This document shows positions 1,461-60,841 of a stretch of DNA of 64,000 bases, piece by piece. Below the pieces are notes generated by a model that was not told where the DNA came from, did not search any database, and worked only from the letters and a program-made list of their open reading frames with translations. Location of the stretch: contig NZ_BAAAHE010000045.1 of the NCBI RefSeq assembly GCF_039525035.1, positions 1 through 64,000 of the forward strand, read 5' to 3'. Both the position numbers and the translations under genes were made by a program. Source of the DNA: Sporichthya brevicatena. GTDB lineage: Bacteria > Actinomycetota > Actinomycetes > Sporichthyales > Sporichthyaceae. Within the stretch, counting starts at the first letter, position 1. Every line of letters begins with the position of its first letter.

Positions 1461-2930
1461 GTGCACCTCGGTATCGCCTCCCTCGCCGGCGTCCTCGCGC
1501 TCAGCCCGCTGGCCGTCGCGGCCGGCTCTCCCGCGCAGGCGGGGAGCTGGGACTCCGCCGTGCCCGTCGCCGACTGCGGCCCCGGCTCGAAGCCCGAGAC
1601 CGGGCTGCAGGGCCAGGTCCCCCTCGCCGACCGCACGAGCGGCCGCAGCCAGCAGGGCTACTCCTGCAACCTCGAACTGCTCGGGCAGTACCAGGGCGAG
1701 GGCACGACCTGGGTGAACCAGTCGTACCGGCACTGCGCCTACAACGCGACGTCGTTGTTCGGGATCGGCCGCAAGGTTTCCGAGGGCGTGCAGGTCATCG
1801 ACGTCTCGAACCCGCGCAGGCCCAAGCTCGCCGGGAACCTCACCAGCCCGGCGATGCTGACCGACACGTGGGAGAGCCTGAAGGTCAACGAGACGCGGGG
1901 CCTGCTGGCCGGCGTCTCGGTCGGCCCGGCGATCGGGACGCTCGCGTTCGACGTCTACGACATCCAGACCGACTGCACGCGCCCGAAGCTGCTCAACGGG
2001 CTCTCGACCTCGACCTTCACCCTGCCCGCGTCGACCGTCAACCACGAGGGCCAGTGGTCCCCGGACGGGCGGACGTACTGGGCGACCAGCGTCGCCGGCG
2101 GGGCGATCACCGCCATCGACGTCGACGACCCGGCGAACCCGCGCATCGCCGCCGTCAGCACGATCGGCTACGCCAACCACGGGTTCGAGCTCTCCGCCGA
2201 CGGCAACCGCATGTACCTGACCACCGGATTCCCGGCGGGCGTGGTCGTGCTCGACGTCAGCGAGGTGCAGGCGCGCAAGCCGGCGCCGCTGATCCGCGAG
2301 CTCGGCCGCGTCGCCTGGGGCGGACCGGCCACGATCGGCCAGCACACGATCCCGGTCACCTGGGGCGGCAAGCCGTACCTGGTTGCGGTCGACGAGTTCG
2401 CGGGCGAGGACATCCACATCGTCGACATCTCCGACGAGACGAGGCCGCGCGTCGTGCGCCAGATCCAGCTCGAGATCAGCCGCCCCGAGCACGCGGACCT
2501 CGCTGCCTCCGAGACCAAGGGCAACGGCCTGTTCGGCTACGACGCGCACTACTGCAGTGTCGACCGGCGGACCGACCCGACCGCGCTCGCGTGCGGGTTC
2601 TTCCAGTCCGGCGTGCGCGTCTTCGACGTCGTGGACCCGCTGAACCCGCGCGAGATCGCGTACTTCAACCCGCCGGCGCAGGTCGGGAAGAACGCGCAGC
2701 TGCTCGGCTCGGAGCACGCCGCGCACGGCGTCACCTACATCGGCAACGCCTCGAACGTCCGGGACGCCGGGCCGACCGGCGTCGGCTTCACCGGCCAGCC
2801 GGCGGACCTGACCGCGGACTGGTGCAGCTCGCCGCCGCGCTTCGTCGGGAAGAACCAGCTCTGGGTCGCCTGCCAGGACAATGGCTTCATGGCGCTCCGC
2901 TTCACGAACAACGCCTACCGCGCGCGGTGA
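1461..2930 (+). CDS. Secreted LVIVD-repeat (beta-propeller-like) protein
   Basis: Predicted exported protein of 489 residues. The GTG start at 1461 has GGAG about 8 bases upstream and is followed by a signal peptide (hydrophobic SLAGVLALSPLAVAAG, Ala-x-Ala site near residue 27). The mature part holds repeated strand motifs of the LVIVD type: VQVIDVSNPRRPKLAG, VVVLDVSE, IHIVDISDETRPRVV and VRVFDVVDPLNPREIA, each ending in a 'P..I/V' turn. This repeat is expected to fold as a beta-propeller. Several Cys residues (for example DCGPGS, YSCN, HCAYN, HYCSV) could form disulfides outside the membrane. The stop overlaps the start of the DUF305 gene by 4 bases (GTGA), so the two are translationally coupled. 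The biochemical role is unknown. Confidence 0.85.
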   Translation: MHLGIASLAGVLALSPLAVAAGSPAQAGSWDSAVPVADCGPGSKPETGLQGQVPLADRTSGRSQQGYSCNLELLGQYQGEGTTWVNQSYRHCAYNATSLFGIGRKVSEGVQVIDVSNPRRPKLAGNLTSPAMLTDTWESLKVNETRGLLAGVSVGPAIGTLAFDVYDIQTDCTRPKLLNGLSTSTFTLPASTVNHEGQWSPDGRTYWATSVAGGAITAIDVDDPANPRIAAVSTIGYANHGFELSADGNRMYLTTGFPAGVVVLDVSEVQARKPAPLIRELGRVAWGGPATIGQHTIPVTWGGKPYLVAVDEFAGEDIHIVDISDETRPRVVRQIQLEISRPEHADLAASETKGNGLFGYDAHYCSVDRRTDPTALACGFFQSGVRVFDVVDPLNPREIAYFNPPAQVGKNAQLLGSEHAAHGVTYIGNASNVRDAGPTGVGFTGQPADLTADWCSSPPRFVGKNQLWVACQDNGFMALRFTNNAYRAR

Positions 2931-3544
2931 AGCGCCCGTCCGCGCCGGTCGCCGTGGCGGCCGGCGCGCTGGTGCTCGGGCTCGGCGCCGGCATCGGGCT
3001 CGCCACGGCGCTCGACGACGACTCCGGCACGGCGGTGTCGGCTGCCGCGGCCACGCCGAGCGCGGTGGACATCGGCTTCAGCCAGGACATGATCGTCCAC
3101 CACGAGCAGGCCGTGCTGATGGCGCAGCTGGTCCGGGGCCGGACCGCCGACCCGAAGATCGCGGCCCTCGCGGCCGGGATCGAGTCCGACCAGCTTCTGG
3201 AGATCGGGACCCTGCGCGGCTACCTGGCGCTCTGGGACGCCCCGGTGCTGCCCGCCGGCCCCCCGATGACGTGGATGGCCGACCACCAGCACGGCGCCGC
3301 GATGCCGGGCATGGCGACGACTGCCCAGCTCAACCGCCTGCGGTCCGCGAAGGGCGCCGCGCTGGACCGGATGTTCCTCCAGCTCATGCTCCGCCACCAC
3401 GAGGGCGGTCAGCCGATGCTCAGCGACGCCGCGGCGAACGCCGCGATCCCCGCCGTCCGCGCCCTCGCGAGCCGGATGTCGTTCCACCAGGGCGAGGAGA
3501 TCCGGACGATCCAGGCTCTGCTGGCGACCACGCAGCCGTCCTGA
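2927..3544 (+). CDS. DUF305 family exported protein
   Basis: A 205-residue protein that starts at the GTG overlapping the stop of the LVIVD gene. An N-terminal membrane anchor or signal (VAVAAGALVLGLGAGIGLATAL) precedes a ferritin-like DUF305 helical domain. The family hallmarks are visible: DIGFSQDMIVHHEQAVLMA near residue 50, a second RMFLQLMLRHHEGGQPM motif, and Met/His-rich MTWMADHQHGAAMPGMA between them. His/Met pairs in this family are thought to bind metal (one cyanobacterial member, CopM, binds copper). Metal binding here is inferred from the motif only. Coupling to the upstream secreted propeller suggests a shared extracytoplasmic role. Confidence 0.88.
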   Translation: MKRPSAPVAVAAGALVLGLGAGIGLATALDDDSGTAVSAAAATPSAVDIGFSQDMIVHHEQAVLMAQLVRGRTADPKIAALAAGIESDQLLEIGTLRGYLALWDAPVLPAGPPMTWMADHQHGAAMPGMATTAQLNRLRSAKGAALDRMFLQLMLRHHEGGQPMLSDAAANAAIPAVRALASRMSFHQGEEIRTIQALLATTQPS

Positions 3545-3579
3545 CCGACGCCCGGGCGCAGGGCCGCGACTTAACGAAA

Positions 3580-3668
3580 AGGACCCCCCGCGCACCTACC
3601 AGAGCCCACCTACCCTTGCTGCCTTCCGGCCCTGGGGGGGTTCAGCAGGATGGCACCACGCGGGGAGC
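3580..3668 (-). ncRNA. ffs: Signal recognition particle RNA (4.5S, small type)
   Basis: The reverse strand contains the conserved SRP RNA apical domain: TCCTGCTGAA, a C-run, then AGGGCCGGAAGGCAGCAAGG, with complementary outer arms GCGTGG.../...GTGCGCGG closing the hairpin. It binds Ffh and targets nascent membrane proteins. The C-run, the GGAA tetraloop region and the AGCAAGG strand are diagnostic. A TACACT -10-like box lies just upstream on the reverse strand (about 3676-3681). The 3' side reads into CCTTTTCGTTAA, a plausible terminator tail. Ends are approximate to a few bases. Confidence 0.9.
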
Positions 3669-3771
3669 CGGGATCAGTGTACGGGGCGCCCGTCGGGTGG
3701 GAACCGGACGCACTCCACCCTCTCGCGGTCGGCGCGGGCTCCAGCTCCTAGTACCCTTGTCCACGCTCCAA

Positions 3772-3856
3772 GGAGGATTCGCCTAGTGGCCTAGGGCGCA
3801 CGCTTGGAAAGCGTGTTGGGGGCAACCCCTCACGAGTTCAAATCTCGTATCCTCCG
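3772..3856 (+). tRNA. tRNA-Ser (anticodon GGA)
   Basis: An 85-nt class II tRNA. Acceptor stem GGAGGAT pairs with ATCCTCC; the anticodon loop TTGGAAA carries GGA, which reads UCC/UCU; the long variable arm GTTGGGGGCAACCCCTC is typical of serine tRNA; the T loop is GTTCAAATC. CCA is not encoded (CCG follows). The 3' part from the anticodon loop onward (3804-3856) is duplicated at 13738-13790, which shows that a mobile element integrated here and restored the gene. Confidence 0.96.
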
Positions 3857-3869
3857 CCGGCTGAGCAGC
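3804..3869 (+). repeat. Left attachment site (attL) in tRNA-Ser
   Basis: A 56-bp stretch (3804-3859), from the tRNA anticodon loop through the 3' end plus CCG, is repeated without a mismatch at 13738-13793. After one mismatch (G/A) another 9 bp, CTGAGCAGC, also match (to 3869 and 13803). This is the core crossover region of a tyrosine-recombinase element. Confidence 0.93.
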
Positions 3870-3872
3870 ACA

Positions 3873-3910
3873 AACGCCGGGCGCCCATCGGGTGCCCGGC
3901 GTTCGTCTTT
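3873..3910 (+). terminator. Terminator after tRNA-Ser, element-borne
   Basis: AACGCCGGGCGCCC pairs with GGGTGCCCGGCGTT (14 bp, one G-U) around an ATC loop, followed by CGTCTTT. Because it lies inside attL, it was brought by the element. The terminator at 13804-13837 appears to be the original one. Confidence 0.75.
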
Positions 3911-3914
3911 CCGG

Positions 3915-3935
3915 TCCGTCTCAGTTTCCGTCTCA
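3915..3935 (+). repeat. Left arm-type repeats (integrase binding candidates)
   Basis: TCCGTCTCA occurs at 3915-3923 and 3927-3935, start-to-start 12 bp, in the same orientation. The same pair with the same 12-bp period occurs near the other end (13622-13642). Paired repeats near both att cores fit arm-binding sites of a tyrosine recombinase. Confidence 0.65.
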
Positions 3936-3978
3936 TTTGTCTTCTCGGTCCAAGGCGGTCGACGCGTAGCCTGAGGGC

Positions 3979-4209
3979 ATGCAGTTCGCGCGGATCACGG
4001 TGGAGCCGGACAAGATGGGCGGCGTGCCCTGTATCCGCGGCTTCCGCATTCCGGTCGCCACGGTGGTCGGCATGGTTGCCGAGGGGATGTCCACCGAGGA
4101 GATCCTCGCCGACTACCCGGATCTCGAAGCCGAGGACATCCGTGAGGCGCTGCTCTTCGCTGCGGAGGCCGTCCGCGATCGCGACTTGCCGCTGCGCCTC
4201 GGCGCGTGA
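3979..4209 (+). CDS. DUF433 antitoxin
   Basis: A 76-residue DUF433 protein. Visible features are the family's core pattern: DKMGGVPCIRGFRIPV (the 'G.P.I.GTRI.V' signature), then a small winged-helix segment with the MSTEEILADYPDLEAEDIREAL motif. DUF433 proteins are the usual upstream partner of DUF5615 PIN-like toxins. The stop overlaps the start of the DUF5615 gene by 4 bases (GTGA), so the pair is coupled. It is the first gene inside the left end of the mobile element, a position that suits an addiction module keeping the element in the cell. Regulation is probably by autorepression, inferred from the family. Confidence 0.88.
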   Translation: MQFARITVEPDKMGGVPCIRGFRIPVATVVGMVAEGMSTEEILADYPDLEAEDIREALLFAAEAVRDRDLPLRLGA

Positions 4210-9513: not shown

Positions 9514-12500
9514 TCAGCTGCAGGTTTGGGCGGGCCGTCTGCGCGGTGAGCGGGTGCGTGTCCAGTCTTTGGGCGCTTCGGTCAGTGCCATCTGCTCGAC
9601 GAGCCGGAGTGTTTGTGGGGCTGCGGCGTGCTGCCCGGCCGCGGAGTCGTCGCGCGCCGGGGCATTCAGCAGTGTCATCGAGGCCGTGGCGGTAAAGGTG
9701 ATGCCTTGGTAGGTGCCACGCAGCTCCTGCTGGTCGGCGGCGGGCATGCCGAGCGCCGCAACCCAGCAGGTGCGCTGGTTCTGGGTGCCGGTGACGTCAC
9801 CAGACATCTTGGTCTTTCGCTCCACGACGTAGCAGGTGATGCGTTGCCCCTCGACCTCGACCGAGCGGGCGCCAGTCACGGTCGAGCTGGTCTCGCCGCG
9901 GGTGCCGCCCGCTTTCCAGCGGCTGGTCCAGGTGTCGCCGATGCGGATCGGGGTTCGGATGAGCTGTTGGGGGGTGTCGAAGGTTCCTCCATAGGACAGG
10001 CCGAGGGCGCTGGCTTTGAGGTTGATCGCGTCGACCGATCCGGGGCCGTAACGGCGGGTTTCGTCGGTGGTGGCGAAGCTGGTTTCGGTGTGGACGCCGA
10101 ATTCGGGGCGGTCGGCGGTGCCCCCGGTGCGTGTGACGACGGCGTCGGCGTCCTCAGCAAAGGGCTGTGCGGACCCGGCGGCGCCGACCTTGCGCTGTCC
10201 TTCCACGCGATAGGTCCAGCTTCCTTCGGCTGGGGGTGTGATCGATGCCGGGGCTGACGCGCCCGGCGTTCTCTGGGGCGGCCTCGCCTCCGGCGTCGGG
10301 GTCGCCCCGTTGTTCTGAGTGTTGGCGGACGCCTTCGGGGACCGGCTCGGCTGCGGTTGGGGTTTGGCCGTACCGGGTGACGGCGTGGTCTTGACGGGAC
10401 CGCCGCCCGTGGCGGGCGAGGCAGGCGCCGCCGCTGTTGACGCGCGTTCGGCTGGGACCTGGACCACGCCGAGGTCCTCGCGGACGGCGAAGGCGAAGCC
10501 GGGGAGGGCAACGGCGAGGGCAAGCAGTCCGGCGGCGGATCCGGCGACCGCCAGCCGCGGCCGGAACCCGGTGCGGGTCAGGCCCGTCGACGGCCAGAAG
10601 GCGTACCGGCCAAGCAGGACGGTGGCGGCCGGGACCATCAAGGTGCGGACGACGAAGGTGTCGATGAGGACGCCGATGGCGACGCCGAAGCCGATCTGAC
10701 GCACGCTCGGGAGCGGGGTGATCAGCAATGCGGCGAAGGTTCCCGCCAACACGAACCCGGCGGCGGTGATGGTGGGACCGGTGCTGACCAGCGCGTGGGT
10801 GGTGGCGTCGCGGACGGTGCGTCCGCCGTCGAGTTCTTCGCGGATGCGTCCGACGATGAAAATGTTGTAGTCCGACCCGAGGGCGATGAGCATGACGAAG
10901 AGCAGGATCGGCAGGTAGAACGCGAGCCCCTGCTCGCCGAGCAGTCCTTGGAACACGAGCGTCGTGATGCCGATGGCGGCGAGCATCGAGAGCAGCACGC
11001 TGAACAGCAGGTAGAGCGGCGCGATCACCGAGCGCACCAGCAGGGCGAGGACGATCATGATCAGCGCGATGACGAGCGCGCCGACCGTCTTCAGGTCGCC
11101 GTTGATCAGGGTGTCGATGTCGGCGAAGTAGGCGCTCGGCCCGCCGATGGCGATCCGGGCATCGGTGACCTCGCTTCCCGCGAGCGCTCCCGCGGTGATC
11201 TCGTCGAGTCCTCGGACCGAGGTGAGGACATCGTGGGCGTAGGGGCTGTGGTCGAAGGCGACCACGATGCGGCTGGTTCGACCGTCGGCGGAGAGGAAGT
11301 AGTCCAGACGCTGAGTGAACTTGGGGTATTGGCGCAGCAGGTCGCCGCTGAGGCGCAAGCCCTCGGGTGAGGACAACGCCGCGACCAGCGGGCCGACATC
11401 GGTGCGGTTCGGGTCGATCCCGAGGGCGCGTAAGTCGGTGGTGCCGCCGGTGAACTCGGCGAGGGTCTTGGTGGTGAGTGGTGCGCCGGCCGGTTGCGTG
11501 ACCGAGCGGACCTCCGCCACACCCGGCACCGCGCGGAGGCGGTCCGTCAGCTTGTCGATCGCGGCGAGACGATCAGCGGCCAGCAGGGACTTTTCTGCCG
11601 AGACGACGACGAACGCCGGCGCGAGCGCACCCGGCGGGTAGTGCTCGGCCAGCAGGTCAAAACCCTGCCGGGCTCCGGCATCGGCGGGCAGTTCGGCGGG
11701 CAGGTCGAAAGAGGTCTTGGTCTGGCTGGCGGCGGCGGCCGGTACGGCCAGCACGGCCACGCTGACCAGCAACACGGCGACCGGGCGACGGCCCACGAGG
11801 TCGGCCACCCGCCGCCACCGCTGCTCCGCTCGGTCCGCCCCAGCTGCATCAGGCCGCGACGGCCAGAACACCGCCCGCCCAGCCAGACGCATCAGCGCGG
11901 GAGTCAGGGTGAGGGAAGCGAGGCCGGTGACCGCTACCGCCAGACCCAGGATCGGACCAAAGGAGTGGACGATCCCGAGCTCGGCGGCGAGGAACGCGAA
12001 GAAGCCCACACTGACGGTCACCGCAGACGCCACGACCGTGGGGGACACAGCGGATGTCGCCCGGGCCAGCCGAGAGACCGTGCCCGACTCGGAAGGGGTC
12101 CGCGTCTCCTCTCGGTAGCGGGACAGGACGAACATCGCGTAGTCGGTGCCGGCCCCGAAGGCCATCACGATCATGAAGGTCTCGGAGAGGCTGTGCACTT
12201 CAAGCCCGGCCTCGGCCAGGTAGCCGGCCAGCCCACGGGAGACCAGGAAGGCGCATCCGATCGTGGCCAACGAGATCAGCGGCGCCACGACCGAGCGGTA
12301 GACCGCGACCAGGATCAGCAGCACCAGGATGATCGTGGCGACCGCTGTCTTGTCGAAGGCCTCAACCGTCGCCTTTGCCTGGTCGGCTCCGAGCGCGGCG
12401 AGGCCGGTGACCTTGATCTGCAGGCCAGGCGGTCCGGTCGAGTTGACGTAGTCGCGCAGGAAACTGACGGTGCGTTCGGAGGAGACAGTGAAGATCTGGG

Positions 12501-12909
12501 CCTTGATGCTGACGATGATCAGTTCGGCTGCGCCGTCGGCCGAACGCAAAACCGGCGCGAGCTCAGGCGCGGACGCCGCCGTCTGCACGCTCTTGACGTA
12601 AGGCGCCGCCTGGGGCGAACGCAGGAAGTCCCCAACGCCCGCGATGTACTGATGATCGGCCGCTGTCAGCCCACCGTCGCGGGCCAGCACGATGACGGCC
12701 GGGTCCCGGGTCGGGTCGTCCGGGAAGGCGGCCCGCAGAAGCGCGTCGGCCTGGCCGGAGGGCGCGGAGGCCGGGACGAACGCCGTCTGGTCGGCGGTGC
12801 CGAGGTCGCGCACGCTCGGCGCGGTGAGCGTGAGCCACACCGTGCCGACGATCCAGACCAACGCCATCGGCCAGGCCCAGCGCTCGACGAAGCGGGCACC
12901 CGACCTCAC
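9514..12909 (-). CDS. MMPL-family exporter with C-terminal extracytoplasmic domain
   Basis: A 1131-residue RND-type MMPL transporter. Two repeats, each one TM, a large outer loop and a bundle of TMs, are visible. The proton-relay Asp-Tyr pairs occur in FGAGTDYAMFV and LGSDYNIFIV. Unlike usual MMPL proteins (700-800 aa), it continues after an extra TM (LAVAGSAAGLLALAVALPGF, about residue 785) into a Pro/Ala/Thr linker and a folded C-terminal part of about 250 residues. That part has a Cys pair (ITCYVVE, RTCWVAAL) and would sit outside the membrane. The GTG start overlaps the tetR stop (GTGA). Probable cargo of the mobile element for export of a lipid or toxic compound; the substrate is unknown. 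Confidence 0.88.
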   Translation of the reverse strand: MRSGARFVERWAWPMALVWIVGTVWLTLTAPSVRDLGTADQTAFVPASAPSGQADALLRAAFPDDPTRDPAVIVLARDGGLTAADHQYIAGVGDFLRSPQAAPYVKSVQTAASAPELAPVLRSADGAAELIIVSIKAQIFTVSSERTVSFLRDYVNSTGPPGLQIKVTGLAALGADQAKATVEAFDKTAVATIILVLLILVAVYRSVVAPLISLATIGCAFLVSRGLAGYLAEAGLEVHSLSETFMIVMAFGAGTDYAMFVLSRYREETRTPSESGTVSRLARATSAVSPTVVASAVTVSVGFFAFLAAELGIVHSFGPILGLAVAVTGLASLTLTPALMRLAGRAVFWPSRPDAAGADRAEQRWRRVADLVGRRPVAVLLVSVAVLAVPAAAASQTKTSFDLPAELPADAGARQGFDLLAEHYPPGALAPAFVVVSAEKSLLAADRLAAIDKLTDRLRAVPGVAEVRSVTQPAGAPLTTKTLAEFTGGTTDLRALGIDPNRTDVGPLVAALSSPEGLRLSGDLLRQYPKFTQRLDYFLSADGRTSRIVVAFDHSPYAHDVLTSVRGLDEITAGALAGSEVTDARIAIGGPSAYFADIDTLINGDLKTVGALVIALIMIVLALLVRSVIAPLYLLFSVLLSMLAAIGITTLVFQGLLGEQGLAFYLPILLFVMLIALGSDYNIFIVGRIREELDGGRTVRDATTHALVSTGPTITAAGFVLAGTFAALLITPLPSVRQIGFGVAIGVLIDTFVVRTLMVPAATVLLGRYAFWPSTGLTRTGFRPRLAVAGSAAGLLALAVALPGFAFAVREDLGVVQVPAERASTAAAPASPATGGGPVKTTPSPGTAKPQPQPSRSPKASANTQNNGATPTPEARPPQRTPGASAPASITPPAEGSWTYRVEGQRKVGAAGSAQPFAEDADAVVTRTGGTADRPEFGVHTETSFATTDETRRYGPGSVDAINLKASALGLSYGGTFDTPQQLIRTPIRIGDTWTSRWKAGGTRGETSSTVTGARSVEVEGQRITCYVVERKTKMSGDVTGTQNQRTCWVAALGMPAADQQELRGTYQGITFTATASMTLLNAPARDDSAAGQHAAAPQTLRLVEQMALTEAPKDWTRTRSPRRRPAQTCS

Positions 12910-13490
12910 GGCCGGGGCTCCAGCCCGCCCAGCAGCAGATTGACGAGCGAGTCGGACATCGCTTCGGGCTCCAGTTCGGCCCCGACAACCAGCGCCTGCA
13001 GTGCGGCGATGATGACGGCGCCGAACAACGCCGAGGCCGTCGCCACGGGATCACCGACGGAGCGCAAGGAGCCATCGGCCGCGCCCTCTTCCAGCACCGC
13101 GATCACGGGCACGTGGAAAACCGGGAACAGCTCAGCGACTGTCTCCGACAGTTGGCCGGCCTGTTCCAGGTTGCCGATCAGCACACGGCAGGCCTCGGGA
13201 TGCTCGACCACGGTCTGCACGACGCCGCGAATGACGGCATCCAGCCGATCGCGGGCCGTCCCAGGCTCGGTGGTCGCCTCCTTGATCGCCATCTCGAGAT
13301 GGCCGATGGTCGAGTGCATCAACCAGCCGAGCACGGCGTCCTTGCCGCGGAAGTGGTAGTAGAGCGTCGCTCGGGGGACGCCGGAAGCGGCCACCAAGTC
13401 GTCCATCCGCGTCGCGCCGAAGCCCTTACGGATGAACACCTCGGCCAGCGACCGGGCCGAGTTCAGCAACCACGCGGGTTGGGGGCGCAC
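12906..13490 (-). CDS. TetR-family regulator of the MMPL exporter
   Basis: A 194-residue TetR repressor with an N-terminal HTH: ATRMDDLVAASGVPRATLYYHFRGKDAVL, typical of the family, then a helical ligand domain (TetR_C-like). The open frame can begin at GTG 13490. An in-frame ATG at 13520 is followed after MTSKIQG by a TGA, so the natural start may have been interrupted, or the GTG is used by reinitiation. The gene overlaps the exporter start by 4 bases, so the two form one operon. The inverted repeat TTGGACGT-T-ACGTCCAA just upstream is the likely autoregulatory operator. Confidence 0.9.
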   Translation of the reverse strand: MRPQPAWLLNSARSLAEVFIRKGFGATRMDDLVAASGVPRATLYYHFRGKDAVLGWLMHSTIGHLEMAIKEATTEPGTARDRLDAVIRGVVQTVVEHPEACRVLIGNLEQAGQLSETVAELFPVFHVPVIAVLEEGAADGSLRSVGDPVATASALFGAVIIAALQALVVGAELEPEAMSDSLVNLLLGGLEPRP

Positions 13491-54194: not shown

Positions 54195-55493
<1,299 letters not shown>

Positions 55494-55622
55494 GCGGTCG
55501 CGCCTCTCCGATGTCGTTTACCTGCCGGACGGACTGCCGGCGAACAGCGCCCCAGGCTAGTGCGAACCCGATGCGTCCGGCCAAGTGAGGGCTCGTGGCC
55601 ACCGTTGGCCGGACGCAATGAC

Positions 55623-58439
55623 CTAGCTTCGAGGCGCTGCGAGAGCGTCCGCCGCGGCCTGGCTGCTCTCGGCCAGGAAGGAGAAGCAGCGCTGCGCCTC
55701 CGCCTCCTCACCGATCGCGGCCGCGGCCCGGCCGAGCGCGTGCAGCGAGCGCAGGAAGCCCTGGTTGGGCTCGTGCTCCCACGGCACCGGCCCGTGGCCG
55801 CGCCAGCCGTTGCGCCGCAGCGCGTCGAGGCCGCGGTGGTAGCCGGTGCGCGCGTACGCGTAGGACTCGACGACCGAGCCCCGCGTGTACGCCGCGTCGG
55901 CCAGCGTCGCCCAGGCCCGCGAGTAGTCCGGGAACTGGGCGGCCACCTCAGTGGCGTCGGTGCCGCTGTCCATCAGGTCGCGAGCCTCGGGCAGTTCGGG
56001 CAGCAGCGTGGCCGGGGGCCCCGCGAGCAGGTTCTCGTGCGTCGTCACGCGGCCCATTGTGCCGTTGCGGCCGGACGAGGGCGACGGCACGGCCCCGCTC
56101 CCGGCGGCCGGCGCGCTGACCGGGACCACGGGCGGGGGCGTGACGGCCTCGGCCGGCGTGTCCGGCGTCGTGACCTCGGTCAGGGCGGCCGGGGTGGCAG
56201 CCGCCGCGGCCGCAGCGGCGGCGGCGATGCCGACCAGCGCCGGCACCGGGGCACCGGCGGGGGCACCGGCGGGAGCACCGACGGGAGCGCCGTCCTCCGG
56301 CGAACGCCGCGCGGTCGGGACGTAGTCGGCCTTGCCCATCTTGTTCGGCCACCAGATGTGGCGGTCGAAGTCGAGGGCGAGCGCGGTCACCAGGACCGAG
56401 CGGACGATGAAGGTGTCGATGATGACGCCGACCGCGACCACGAACCCGATCTCGACCATGAACACCATCGGGATCGCGCACATCACCGCGAAGGTGCCGG
56501 CGAGGACCAGGCCCGCCGAGGTGATGACGCCGCCGGTGGCGGTGAGGCCGATGATCGCGCCCCTGCGGGTGCCGTGCTGCCGCGCCTCCTCCTGGACGCG
56601 CGTCATCAGGAAGATGTTGTAGTCGATGCCGAGCGCGACGAGGAACACGAACGCCATCAGCGGCAGACCCGCGTCGGCACCCGCGTAGTTCAGCGGCCCG
56701 GTGAAGACCAGCGAGCTCAGGCCGAACGCCGCGGCGAAGGACAGGACGACCGTCGCCAGCAGGAGGATCGGCGCGAGCAGCGACCGCAGCAGCCCGATCA
56801 GGATCAGGAAGACCACGGCGAGGGTGATCGGGATGACCACCTTGTTGTCGCGGCTCGACGCGTCCTGGGTGTCGAGTGCGACCGCGGTGCTGCCACCGAC
56901 GTGCGCGTTGCCCTCGTCGACCTGGTGGACCGCGTCGCGGACGCGTTCGATGGTGCGCTTGGCGGCCTTGCTGTCCGGCGGGTCCTCGAGCGTCGCCTCG
57001 ATGTAGGCGAGGCCGTTCTGGACCGGGGCCTGGACGACCGAGCCCTCGACGATGCCGGGGACGCCCCCGAGGACGTCGGCCATCTCCTGGCTCTTGCCGC
57101 CGTTGCCCATGACGATGACGGGGTCACCGCTGCCGGCCGGGAAGTGCGCCTGCAGGGCGCGGGCGCCGACGACCGAGTCCTGGGTCTTGGTGAAGCTGTC
57201 CTCGAACGCGAGGCCGCTGGCCGAGAGCTGCGTGACGCCGAGCGCGAGCGCGCCCAGCGCGAGCGAGGTGCCGATCCAGATCGGGCGCGGCTTGGTGGCG
57301 ACGACGTTCGCGACCTTCGCCCAGACACCGCGCTCGGACGGGTCCTCGGTGCCGAAGTTCGGGTGCGTGGGCCAGAACATCCACCGGCCGCCGAGGACCA
57401 GGAACGCCGGAAGCAGCGTCATCATCACGCAGAGTCCGACGCCGATGCTGATCGCCAGCACCGGGCCCATGCTCGACGTGGAGTTCATGTCCGCGAAGGA
57501 CAGGCAGAGCATGCCGAGGATGACGGTGACGCCGCTGGCGAAGACCGCCGGGCCCGCCCGGTGCAGTGCGAACGCCATCGCCTCGTGCCGGTCCTCGTGG
57601 CGCCGCAGCTCCTCGCGGTAGCGGGCGACGAGCAGCAGGGCGTAGTCGGTCCCGGCGCCGAAGACCAGGATCGCCGCGATGATCTGAGCCTGCGCCGTCA
57701 CGGTGATCGCGCCGCCGTCGGCGAGCAGGTAGATCATGCCGAGCGCGACCGAGAGCGCAGCCAGCGCCGACAGCACCGGCAGCAGCCAGAGGACCGGGCT
57801 CCGGTACGTGATCAGCAGGATGACGATGACGACGCACATCGCCGCGAGCAGCACGGCGCCCTCGGTGCCCTCGAACGCATCGGCGAAGTCGCCGTTGAAC
57901 CCGGCGGGGCCGGTGACGTGGACGAGCAGGCCGTCACCGGGCTGGTCGAAGGACTTGATCTCCTCGACGAAGCCGGGCAGCTTCTTCCAGCCGTCGCCCT
58001 TCTCGCCCATGTCGTACGGGACGAGCATCTGCAGGGCCTGGCCGTCGGCCGACTCGAACGGGCCCTGGACCTCGGCCTCGACGCCCTCGATCTCGGCAAA
58101 GGACGCGACGTCGTTGCGCGCGCGCTCACGGTCGGCGTCGGTGAGGCCCTCGCGCCGCTCGTAGACGACGACCGCCATGGCCTCGTTCGGGTTGTTGAAG
58201 CCCTCCATGGCCTTGTAGACCTGCGTGGACTCCGCGCTGCCCGGCAGCCAGTTGACCGCGTCGTTCTCCTGGACGTCGCCGAGCTTGCCGGCGAGCGGAC
58301 CCATGCAGGCGGCGAAGATCACCCAGAAGAGGATGACCACGTACTTGGTCTTCGGCCCGCACGGGAAGCGCGCGAGCTTGCCCGCACCGCTGGCCCCGCT
58401 GGCAGTGCCGACGGAGCCGCCCGCCATGTCGCCGTCCAT
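55623..58439 (-). CDS. MMPL transporter with fused C-terminal DUF3151 domain
   Basis: 938 residues in one frame. Residues 1 to about 715 are an MMPL transporter: two RND-like repeats with the Asp-Tyr pairs FGAGTDYALLL and LGIDYNIFLM. A Pro/Ala-rich low-complexity linker (about 725-795) leads to a complete DUF3151 domain (about 798-938): TTHENLLAGPPATLLPELPEAR, SYAYARTGYHRGLDALRRNGWRGHGPVPWEHEPNQGFLRSLHALGRAA. DUF3151 is normally a separate gene beside purA. ATG 58439 has GGAGGA upstream. An internal GTG at 56048 might also yield DUF3151 alone. Confidence 0.85.
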   Translation of the reverse strand: MDGDMAGGSVGTASGASGAGKLARFPCGPKTKYVVILFWVIFAACMGPLAGKLGDVQENDAVNWLPGSAESTQVYKAMEGFNNPNEAMAVVVYERREGLTDADRERARNDVASFAEIEGVEAEVQGPFESADGQALQMLVPYDMGEKGDGWKKLPGFVEEIKSFDQPGDGLLVHVTGPAGFNGDFADAFEGTEGAVLLAAMCVVIVILLITYRSPVLWLLPVLSALAALSVALGMIYLLADGGAITVTAQAQIIAAILVFGAGTDYALLLVARYREELRRHEDRHEAMAFALHRAGPAVFASGVTVILGMLCLSFADMNSTSSMGPVLAISIGVGLCVMMTLLPAFLVLGGRWMFWPTHPNFGTEDPSERGVWAKVANVVATKPRPIWIGTSLALGALALGVTQLSASGLAFEDSFTKTQDSVVGARALQAHFPAGSGDPVIVMGNGGKSQEMADVLGGVPGIVEGSVVQAPVQNGLAYIEATLEDPPDSKAAKRTIERVRDAVHQVDEGNAHVGGSTAVALDTQDASSRDNKVVIPITLAVVFLILIGLLRSLLAPILLLATVVLSFAAAFGLSSLVFTGPLNYAGADAGLPLMAFVFLVALGIDYNIFLMTRVQEEARQHGTRRGAIIGLTATGGVITSAGLVLAGTFAVMCAIPMVFMVEIGFVVAVGVIIDTFIVRSVLVTALALDFDRHIWWPNKMGKADYVPTARRSPEDGAPVGAPAGAPAGAPVPALVGIAAAAAAAAAATPAALTEVTTPDTPAEAVTPPPVVPVSAPAAGSGAVPSPSSGRNGTMGRVTTHENLLAGPPATLLPELPEARDLMDSGTDATEVAAQFPDYSRAWATLADAAYTRGSVVESYAYARTGYHRGLDALRRNGWRGHGPVPWEHEPNQGFLRSLHALGRAAAAIGEEAEAQRCFSFLAESSQAAADALAAPRS

Positions 58440-58625
58440 CCCGGAGTCCTCCGCGCGTCTGCCCGAGGTGTCCCTGGTGTCACACTCGTCGCACCGTGCA
58501 TCGTTCCAGCCCGCGCGTTCGCGTCACCAGCGCTGTGAGCTTGATTCACGATTTCCTGAACGGGGCTTCAACGTCGGATTGTAGAACCGCGTTCCACCGG
58601 TCCAGAAGTTGACCAAGCCCGGGGG

Positions 58626-59825
58626 TCAGCTGCGCGTCTCGATGCCCCCACGCCAGGTGGTGGAGTCGACGTCGATGCCCCGGTCCTCGCCGGCGCCACC
58701 GTCGAGCCGGTCCCGGCCGCGGCCGCCGATCAGCAGGTCGTTGCCGTCGCCGCCGCGCAGGATGTCGTGGCCCGCGTCGCCGCAGAGGATGTCGTGGCCG
58801 CCGCGCCCGGAGATGCGGTCGTTGCCGAGCCGCCCGCGGATCAGGTCGTTCGCGGCGGAGCCGACGAGCACGTCGTCCCCGTCCGTCCCCTCTCTGAGCA
58901 CCCAGCCGTCCGGCACGGGGCCGTCGGGCGCGCACACGCGCGTGATGTCGACGCCCTGCAGGAGCTGAGTGAAGCGCAGCTGGATGATCCCGTCCGCCTG
59001 GGCGGGCGCGATGCCGAAGGTCGTGCCGGGCCGGCCGAAGCCACTGCCGCCCCCGCCACCCCCGGCCCGGGTGGTCAGCCCGGACGTGAGCGCGCGGGCC
59101 GCCCCACCGCCGCCGTAGTAGCCGCCGCCCCCGCCGGCACCGGCCCCGGTGCCGCCGAGGCCCCGGGTTCCGGCCTTCGCCTCGGCCGCCCCGGCGCCGC
59201 CCCGCGTCTCGGTCGCGCCGGACCCCGCCCCGGCCGCGCTGCCCCCGAGACCGGCCGTGCCGATCGAGCCGCCGCCCACCCCGCCGTTGCTGCGCCGGTC
59301 GGGCGCGGCCCCGCCGCCACCGCCACCGCCGGCGGCGATCAACGGGTCCGTGGTCAGCGGGTCGGGACTGACGCCGCCCTCCCGCAGGTGGATCTCGGTG
59401 CGGCCCCCGCCGCCCCCGGCCCCCGGAGTACCGGCGGCGCCGCCGCCGTTGATGCCGCCGTGCGCGGGCCGACCCCCGATCGCCGTGGCGTTGCCGCCAC
59501 GACCGCCGACCCGCAGGTCCCAGACCTCCCCCGGTTCGACGAGCAGCACCGCGTGCGCGGTGCCGCCACGACCACCGAAGCTCGTGTCCGGCGGCCCGTC
59601 GCCGCCGGCCGCGCCCTGCACGTAGGCGTCGATCGAACTGACGCCCGCCGGCACGACGAAGCGGATCGGCTTCTCGCTCGGCCTGGCGAACACGCACAGC
59701 ACATCGAGCCCGCTGGTGGTGCACTCGCGGGGCAGTTCGCGGGCCGACGCGGCCGCGCCCGGAAGCGCGGCCACACCCGCAGCCATCATCAGAACGACCA
59801 GCGGCGCACTGAACTGACGCTTCAT
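58626..59825 (-). CDS. Secreted glycine-rich protein with RTX calcium-binding repeats
   Basis: About 399 residues. Signal peptide (LVVLMMAAGVAALPGAAA), a short beta domain with Cys pair, and a glycine-rich region of about 200 residues with blocks such as GGGGGGGAA and GAGAGGGGGYYGGGG. The C-terminal RTX nonapeptide repeats are GTDGDDVLVG, GRLGNDRISG, GDAGHDILRG, GDGNDLLIGG and GRGRDRLDGG. The last part binds Ca2+ in this family. ATG 59825 or the GTG next to it starts it. Likely a cell-surface or extracellular protein; the role is unknown. Confidence 0.85.
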   Translation of the reverse strand: MKRQFSAPLVVLMMAAGVAALPGAAASARELPRECTTSGLDVLCVFARPSEKPIRFVVPAGVSSIDAYVQGAAGGDGPPDTSFGGRGGTAHAVLLVEPGEVWDLRVGGRGGNATAIGGRPAHGGINGGGAAGTPGAGGGGGRTEIHLREGGVSPDPLTTDPLIAAGGGGGGGAAPDRRSNGGVGGGSIGTAGLGGSAAGAGSGATETRGGAGAAEAKAGTRGLGGTGAGAGGGGGYYGGGGAARALTSGLTTRAGGGGGGSGFGRPGTTFGIAPAQADGIIQLRFTQLLQGVDITRVCAPDGPVPDGWVLREGTDGDDVLVGSAANDLIRGRLGNDRISGRGGHDILCGDAGHDILRGGDGNDLLIGGRGRDRLDGGAGEDRGIDVDSTTWRGGIETRS

Positions 59826-59944
59826 CACCGAGACCTGCCCCCCGAACCGCCCCTCAGGCTCGACGGTAGGGGGAGATCAGTGCGACGCTGCGCACACTGC
59901 GCTGTTCGAGCGAACCGCCCGAAACCGGCAGCGACCCGATCGGG

Positions 59945-60841
59945 CTAGTCGACCGAGGCCTCGTAGATCGCGTCGATCGCGGAGGCGAGGGTGGCGTTGA
60001 ACTCGTCGTCGGTCTGGCGGTCGGAGACACCCTCGACCAGCGCGCGGGAGAAGCTCGCGATGACGCCCGGGTTCTGCTTGAGCAACGCGCAGGCCTCCTC
60101 GCGCGAGTAGCCGCCGGAGAGGGCGACGACGCGCTGGACGTGCGGCTCCGCGACGAGCGGGCTGTAGTAGCCCGCCTCGGTCGGGATCGTCAGCTTGAGC
60201 ATGATCGGGGTGTCGGCGGAGAGCTGCTCGGCCTGCTTCTGGATGTGCTCGCGGAGCAGGACCTCGGCCTCCTGCTTGGTCGGGCTCTTGATCGAGACCT
60301 CGGGCTCCAGGATCGGCACGAGGCCGGCGGCGGCGATCTGCGCGCCGATCTCGAACTGCTGCTCGACGATCGCCGCGATGCCGTCGGGGTTCGCCTCGTG
60401 GATGACCGAGCGCATCTTCGTGCCGTAGACGCCCTTCGCGACGGCGCGGGCGAGGAGCTCGTCGAGGCCCGGGATCGGCTTCATCAGCTGGACGCCGTTG
60501 GCGGTCTCCTCGAGGCCCTTGTCGACCTTGAGGAAGGGAACGACGCCGCGCTCGTTCCAGAGGTACTCGGCGGTGTCCCGGCCGTCGATCTGCCGGTCCA
60601 TCGTCATCTCGAACAGGATCGCGCCCAGCACCTTGTCGCCGGTGAACGCGGGGGACTTGATGATGCGCGTGCGCATCGCGTGCATGAGGTCGAACATCTC
60701 GGCGTCGTTCGAGTAACGCGACTCCTCGATGCCGTAGTCGCGCAGCGCCTTCGGGGTGCTCCCACCGCTCTGGTCCAGGGCGGCGATGAAGCCCTTGCCG
60801 TTGACGACCTTCTCCTGCATGGCCTCACGCTGGCTGCTCAT
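59945..60841 (-). CDS. fba: Fructose-bisphosphate aldolase, class I
   Basis: 298 residues, Schiff-base class I aldolase of glycolysis. MQEKVVNGKGFIAALDQSGGSTPKALRDYGI, PFLKVDKGLEE, VPILEPEVSIKSPTK, and MLKLTIPTEAGYYSPL with candidate catalytic Lys, followed by VALSGGYSREEACALL. ATG 60841 has GGGAGA upstream. The MMPL-DUF3151/purA side and this gene form a neighbourhood (fba, DUF3151, purA) conserved in actinobacteria. Confidence 0.93.
   Translation of the reverse strand: MSSQREAMQEKVVNGKGFIAALDQSGGSTPKALRDYGIEESRYSNDAEMFDLMHAMRTRIIKSPAFTGDKVLGAILFEMTMDRQIDGRDTAEYLWNERGVVPFLKVDKGLEETANGVQLMKPIPGLDELLARAVAKGVYGTKMRSVIHEANPDGIAAIVEQQFEIGAQIAAAGLVPILEPEVSIKSPTKQEAEVLLREHIQKQAEQLSADTPIMLKLTIPTEAGYYSPLVAEPHVQRVVALSGGYSREEACALLKQNPGVIASFSRALVEGVSDRQTDDEFNATLASAIDAIYEASVD

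Follow-up and report, generated by a model that had tools for sequence, protein, structure and literature searches.

An in-frame fusion of an MMPL exporter to DUF3151 in Sporichthya, with a probable nested leaderless DUF3151 gene

The DNA analysed here, called the window, is a stretch of 64,000 nucleotides from Sporichthya brevicatena. Its minus strand carries a frame of 938 uninterrupted codons from ATG 58439, in which an MMPL transporter is continued by a DUF3151 domain with no stop between them. The initial annotation had proposed this fusion and had placed DUF3151 in the last 141 residues after an Ala/Pro linker. Both proposals are borne out, since Pfam recognizes the two domains, the linker and DUF3151 occupy residues 703-797 and 798-938, respectively, and the fusion is in frame in the three genomes of the genus (G000, the window genome, G001 and G002). 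The features of the locus are the following:

55623..58439, minus strand: single ORF for an MMPL exporter, a linker and DUF3151 (938 aa), with the same architecture in G001 and G002
56334..58439, minus strand: MMPL/RND transporter core, residues 1-702 (Pfam PF03176, AF2 model, WWP motif)
56049..56333, minus strand: Ala/Pro-rich linker, residues 703-797, predicted to be disordered (AF2 pLDDT, indels, pN/pS)
55623..56048, minus strand: DUF3151 domain, residues 798-938 (Pfam PF11349), and probable nested gene (141 aa) from GTG 56048
56056..56061, minus strand: CACAAT, putative -10 of a leaderless promoter, lying within linker codons 7 nt 5' of GTG 56048
56055..56057, minus strand: alternative in-frame ATG, three codons 5' of the GTG, which would add MGR (from the sequence)
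58447..58452, minus strand: GGAGGA, Shine-Dalgarno of the MMPL start (from the sequence)
58578..58583, minus strand: TACAAT, putative -10 of the MMPL gene's own promoter (aligned upstream regions; kept in all three genomes)

The exporter part matches PF03176 from residue 65 onward in two stretches (2.6e-126), with 421 bits against a gathering score of 20.5. The C-terminal part matches PF11349 at residues 807-931 (2.1e-53) and covers the profile almost entirely (positions 2-126 of 127; 180-186 bits against a gathering score of 28.4), while the 141-residue short form alone gives 3.7e-55. Asp-Tyr pairs are the proton-relay motifs of MmpL/RND membrane helices and both are kept in the exporter core, in GTDYALL (263) and GIDYNIF (604). 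The best PDB sequence matches of this core are MmpL4 and MmpL5 (1.8e-53), to which it is related but shorter; it scores below the cut-off of TIGR00833 for the ActII/MmpL4-5 subfamily (513.5 bits versus 874.7) and below that of the MmpL3 equivalog NF052608 (75 bits versus 1400). Stand-alone MMPL/RND exporters of other Actinomycetes (PF03176; 59, 54 and 53% identity in G010, G011 and G021) share the core up to WWP, the motif that follows the last helix, and end about 15-30 residues past it. Unlike the fusion, they have no linker and no DUF3151, whereas in the genus a linker of roughly 100-120 residues and then DUF3151 are added after WWP. The linker is read in the MMPL gene's own frame and the exporter has no other stop, so that a ribosome translating to the end also makes DUF3151.

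The fused frames measure 966, 960 and 977 codons from stop to stop in G000, G001 and G002, and translation from the homologous ATG gives 947 and 950 aa in the latter two. Each genome of the genus has one DUF3151, of which the fusion locus is the sole copy. The window genome being a draft of 89 contigs, a sequence or assembly error that joined two genes was considered and rejected: the same fused frame, with diverged linkers, occurs in two further assemblies, one of them (G001) a single contig of 5.5 Mb, and this explanation retains next to no probability. The alternative named at the outset, an error here with separate genes in the relatives, fails within the genus, where three of three genomes are fused. 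The comparison of gene models in close relatives was extended to the sister genus, in which DUF3151 is a separate gene in both genomes (157 and 173 codons from stop to stop) and no MMPL was found near it in either of the two examined. In one of them (G004), the first ATG of DUF3151 lies 45 nt past the end of an unrelated ORF, judged hydrolase-like from its sequence. The fusion is a real, genus-wide new domain architecture.

Location of DUF3151 beside purA, described as usual in the initial annotation, was confirmed in many relatives. In G003 (locus L113), DUF3151 and purA are separated by an ORF on the opposite strand (2696-4174, plus strand) that by eye resembles FAD/NAD-type oxidoreductases. 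The next gene upstream of the fusion in the window (58626-59828, minus strand) encodes a glycine-rich domain and, after it, RTX calcium-binding repeats (Pfam PF12810, PF00353), with a likely signal peptide, as judged by eye; it is conserved in G001, and in G002 the conservation extends to its C-terminal part at least. The aldolase at 59945-60841 (minus strand) matches the class I type (Pfam PF00274), and a search with it as query found no such enzyme near DUF3151 in the sister genus. A second MMPL-type gene (10588-12921, minus strand; frame of 1178 codons) is about 28-42% identical to the fused MMPL over matched stretches. Finally, the strand opposite purA and the fusion has an open frame of 1383 codons (54387-58538, plus strand), which has the look of a shadow ORF arising from GC-rich coding sequence.

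The stop-free frame alone is weak evidence for the fusion. Absence of stops was rejected as proof, since at least 450 open codons lie upstream in about one in eight DUF3151 loci among the class-wide matches listed, and in a neutral simulation of the linker with substitutions alone none of the three tips acquired a stop in 37% of runs. When indels of any length were allowed, the frame stayed open in only about 0.6% of runs (about 0.006). Between G000 and G001 the linker indels are of 15, 15, 48, 3 and 3 nt plus a 7/1 pair netting 6, all net multiples of 3, with the caveat that GCC-type repeats can favour indels of three; a frame kept through indels of this kind is not expected by chance. In the same pair, substitutions fall 5, 10 and 19 times on codon positions 1, 2 and 3 and the linker pN/pS is 0.37 (bootstrap 0.18-0.69). 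The linker GC content is 0.91-0.95 at third against 0.64-0.73 at second positions, and the motif PALVG(I/V) is common to the three linkers. By these measures the linker evolves like coding DNA. Against the more distant G002 its pN/pS rises to 0.69 and 0.89, near neutral, which indicates that the constraint is loose; the fusion is carried by three genomes, two of which are close.

These values bear on the possibility that the tail is incidental, the ancestor of the genus having lost the MMPL stop and the long read-through being tolerated, so that only free DUF3151 would act and the tether would have no function. The easily explained lack of stops in DNA of 80% GC, the fast and nearly neutral change of the linker against G002, the strict conservation of the nested start and its -10-like element and the lack of an MMPL neighbour in the other lineages examined all agree with it. 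Nevertheless, the frame-keeping indels and the pN/pS of the close pair indicate that the tail does not drift quite freely, and we regard read-through as rather unlikely.

The initial annotation had also suggested that an internal GTG at 56048 may give both forms of the protein. Its position is confirmed, and the second form itself has strong indirect support from a conserved -10-like element of the leaderless type. In alignments, GTG 56048 falls on the ATG with which free-standing DUF3151 genes begin. Of 110 distinct loci, 64% have a [CT]ANNNT hexamer separated from the DUF3151 start by a spacer of 6-8 nt, versus 0-2.7% at upstream-shifted positions, many of these loci belonging to related streptomycetes so that the counts are not independent. 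The fairer class-wide set of 28 loci gives 57% versus 0-7%. The widespread occurrence of such a hexamer at a fixed spacing (L001-L115) suggests that DUF3151 was ancestrally leaderless. Within the genus, CACAAT-GGGCCGC-GTG is identical in G000, G001 and G002, its CACAAT being homologous to the hexamer of the relatives at the same spacing. G000 and G001 share all 27 codons from 780 to 806, and G000 and G002 the eight codons for RNGTMGRV; identity of the latter pair at four-fold sites is 61% for the core and 42% for the linker. Of the 51 Thr codons in the window ORF, only the one inside the hexamer is ACA, and it is kept in G002.

Leaderless genes, which are common in Actinobacteria, are marked by TA-like signals about 12 bp upstream of the start (PMC3160421; PMC3898074). 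Nested DUF3151 shows the same traits, with a conserved -10-like hexamer about 12 nt 5' of its start, and reading of the sequence revealed no Shine-Dalgarno before GTG 56048 or before the alternative ATG at 56055..56057. By contrast, the MMPL start has a GGAGGA Shine-Dalgarno and its own conserved TACAAT upstream. A nested leaderless DUF3151 gene with its -10 in the linker codons is probable, judging from these sequence features. Free-standing DUF3151 of Actinomycetes (PF11349) is the same domain, about 50-73% identical to the fused one, with the same purA neighbour and the same leaderless-type start region; only the fused gene has its start and -10 inside the codons of another gene and a frame continuous with it. 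Short in-frame forms can come from internal promoters, for instance FtsWs in Caulobacter (PMC4117421), likewise the C-terminal product of a nested in-frame gene. However, FtsWs represents part of the host protein itself, whereas nested DUF3151 is a whole, independently conserved family.

It could also be that the fusion is the only product, the -10-like element being a relic or a chance match and all DUF3151 of the genus being membrane-bound. The hexamer begins with C rather than the T of TANNNT and has no recognisable -35, and the fused frame appears to be selected, as such an explanation would have it. It fits poorly with the identical codons at residues 780-806 of G000 and G001, with the retention of hexamer, spacing and rare ACA codon in G002, and with an element that sits where free-standing relatives have their promoter; we hold it to be very unlikely.

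In the AF2 model of the full-length protein, the exporter is confident over about residues 17-702 and pLDDT falls under 50 at 703-804, giving two confident domains with a disordered linker between them. DUF3151 modelled alone (pLDDT 93) has seven predicted helices. TPR domains predominate in its fold comparison, with a best Z of 10.8, a range (under about 13) in which Z can reflect a common helical-repeat arrangement; Foldseek gave E-values no better than 6.5e-3, and a search of PDB sequences with the DUF3151 profile found no match (best E 0.47). From these models, a TPR-like adaptor role of DUF3151 is plausible. The usual topology of the MMPL family comprises 12 helices, which would place the exporter C-terminus, and DUF3151 with it, in the cytoplasm. 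A poly-Ala stretch near residues 728-754 scores weakly hydrophobic in G000; were it to span the membrane as an additional helix, DUF3151 would lie on the opposite side.

The initial annotation had taken the fusion as linking DUF3151 to a membrane exporter. Such a physical link does exist in the genus, but as a general tie the claim is weak. The MMPL core was searched for and not found in five long-frame loci (G111, G347, G073, G132, G152) and in 80 further DUF3151 loci, and the 778-codon frame of G037 holds no MMPL either; the class-wide search retained best matches only, and these negative results cover the loci listed. Among the loci examined, MMPL adjoins DUF3151 only in this genus. Because the neighbour is absent from the other lineages examined, the fusion alone does not prove a general functional partnership of MMPL and DUF3151, and such a partnership is not supported. 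The broader idea that DUF3151 is a cytosolic TPR-like adaptor serving an MMPL exporter even where the two are separate, the fusion with its tethered and free forms (the latter from a promoter in linker codons) exposing that partnership, seems quite unlikely. There is a precedent for a cytosolic partner on this exporter class, as MmpL5 holds the small helical cytosolic AcpM on its cytoplasmic face (PMC12346298). That partner is a separate acyl carrier protein, whereas DUF3151 is covalently fused, and a covalent partner of the DUF3151 family on an MMPL exporter was not found in the literature searched. One study mentions a connection between DUF3151 and UPF0421/DUF939, a different family of membrane proteins (PMC9425974), and this lead is separate from the MMPL fusion.

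The explanation that we favour, with somewhat better than even confidence, is a genus-specific fusion with a nested gene, by which one locus would supply tethered and free DUF3151, the domain acting as an adaptor. Transcription from the MMPL gene's own promoter would yield the 938-aa protein, a proton-driven MMPL/RND exporter whose cytoplasmic C-terminus is joined through some 100 flexible residues to the small DUF3151 domain, helical and TPR-like in its fold. From the -10 within the linker codons, a second, leaderless transcript would begin on GTG 56048 or close beside it and would yield DUF3151 as a free protein of 141 aa, like that of other actinobacteria. DUF3151 would serve as a protein-binding adaptor present in two pools, one brought to the membrane by the fusion and one, soluble, provided by the nested gene. 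The sequence leads us to infer that both products are made and that tethering matters, and the nested start suggests that soluble DUF3151 is still wanted.

DUF3151 is present in 84% of 393 sampled genomes of the class, and the literature searched contained two passing mentions but no dedicated study of its function. The membrane tether, the TPR-like model and the leaderless-type start are three concrete handles on this family, and the locus is an example of a gene that would keep its own promoter inside the codons of the gene fused to it. The fusion, together with the probable nested leaderless gene, is an interesting and testable finding of moderate weight.
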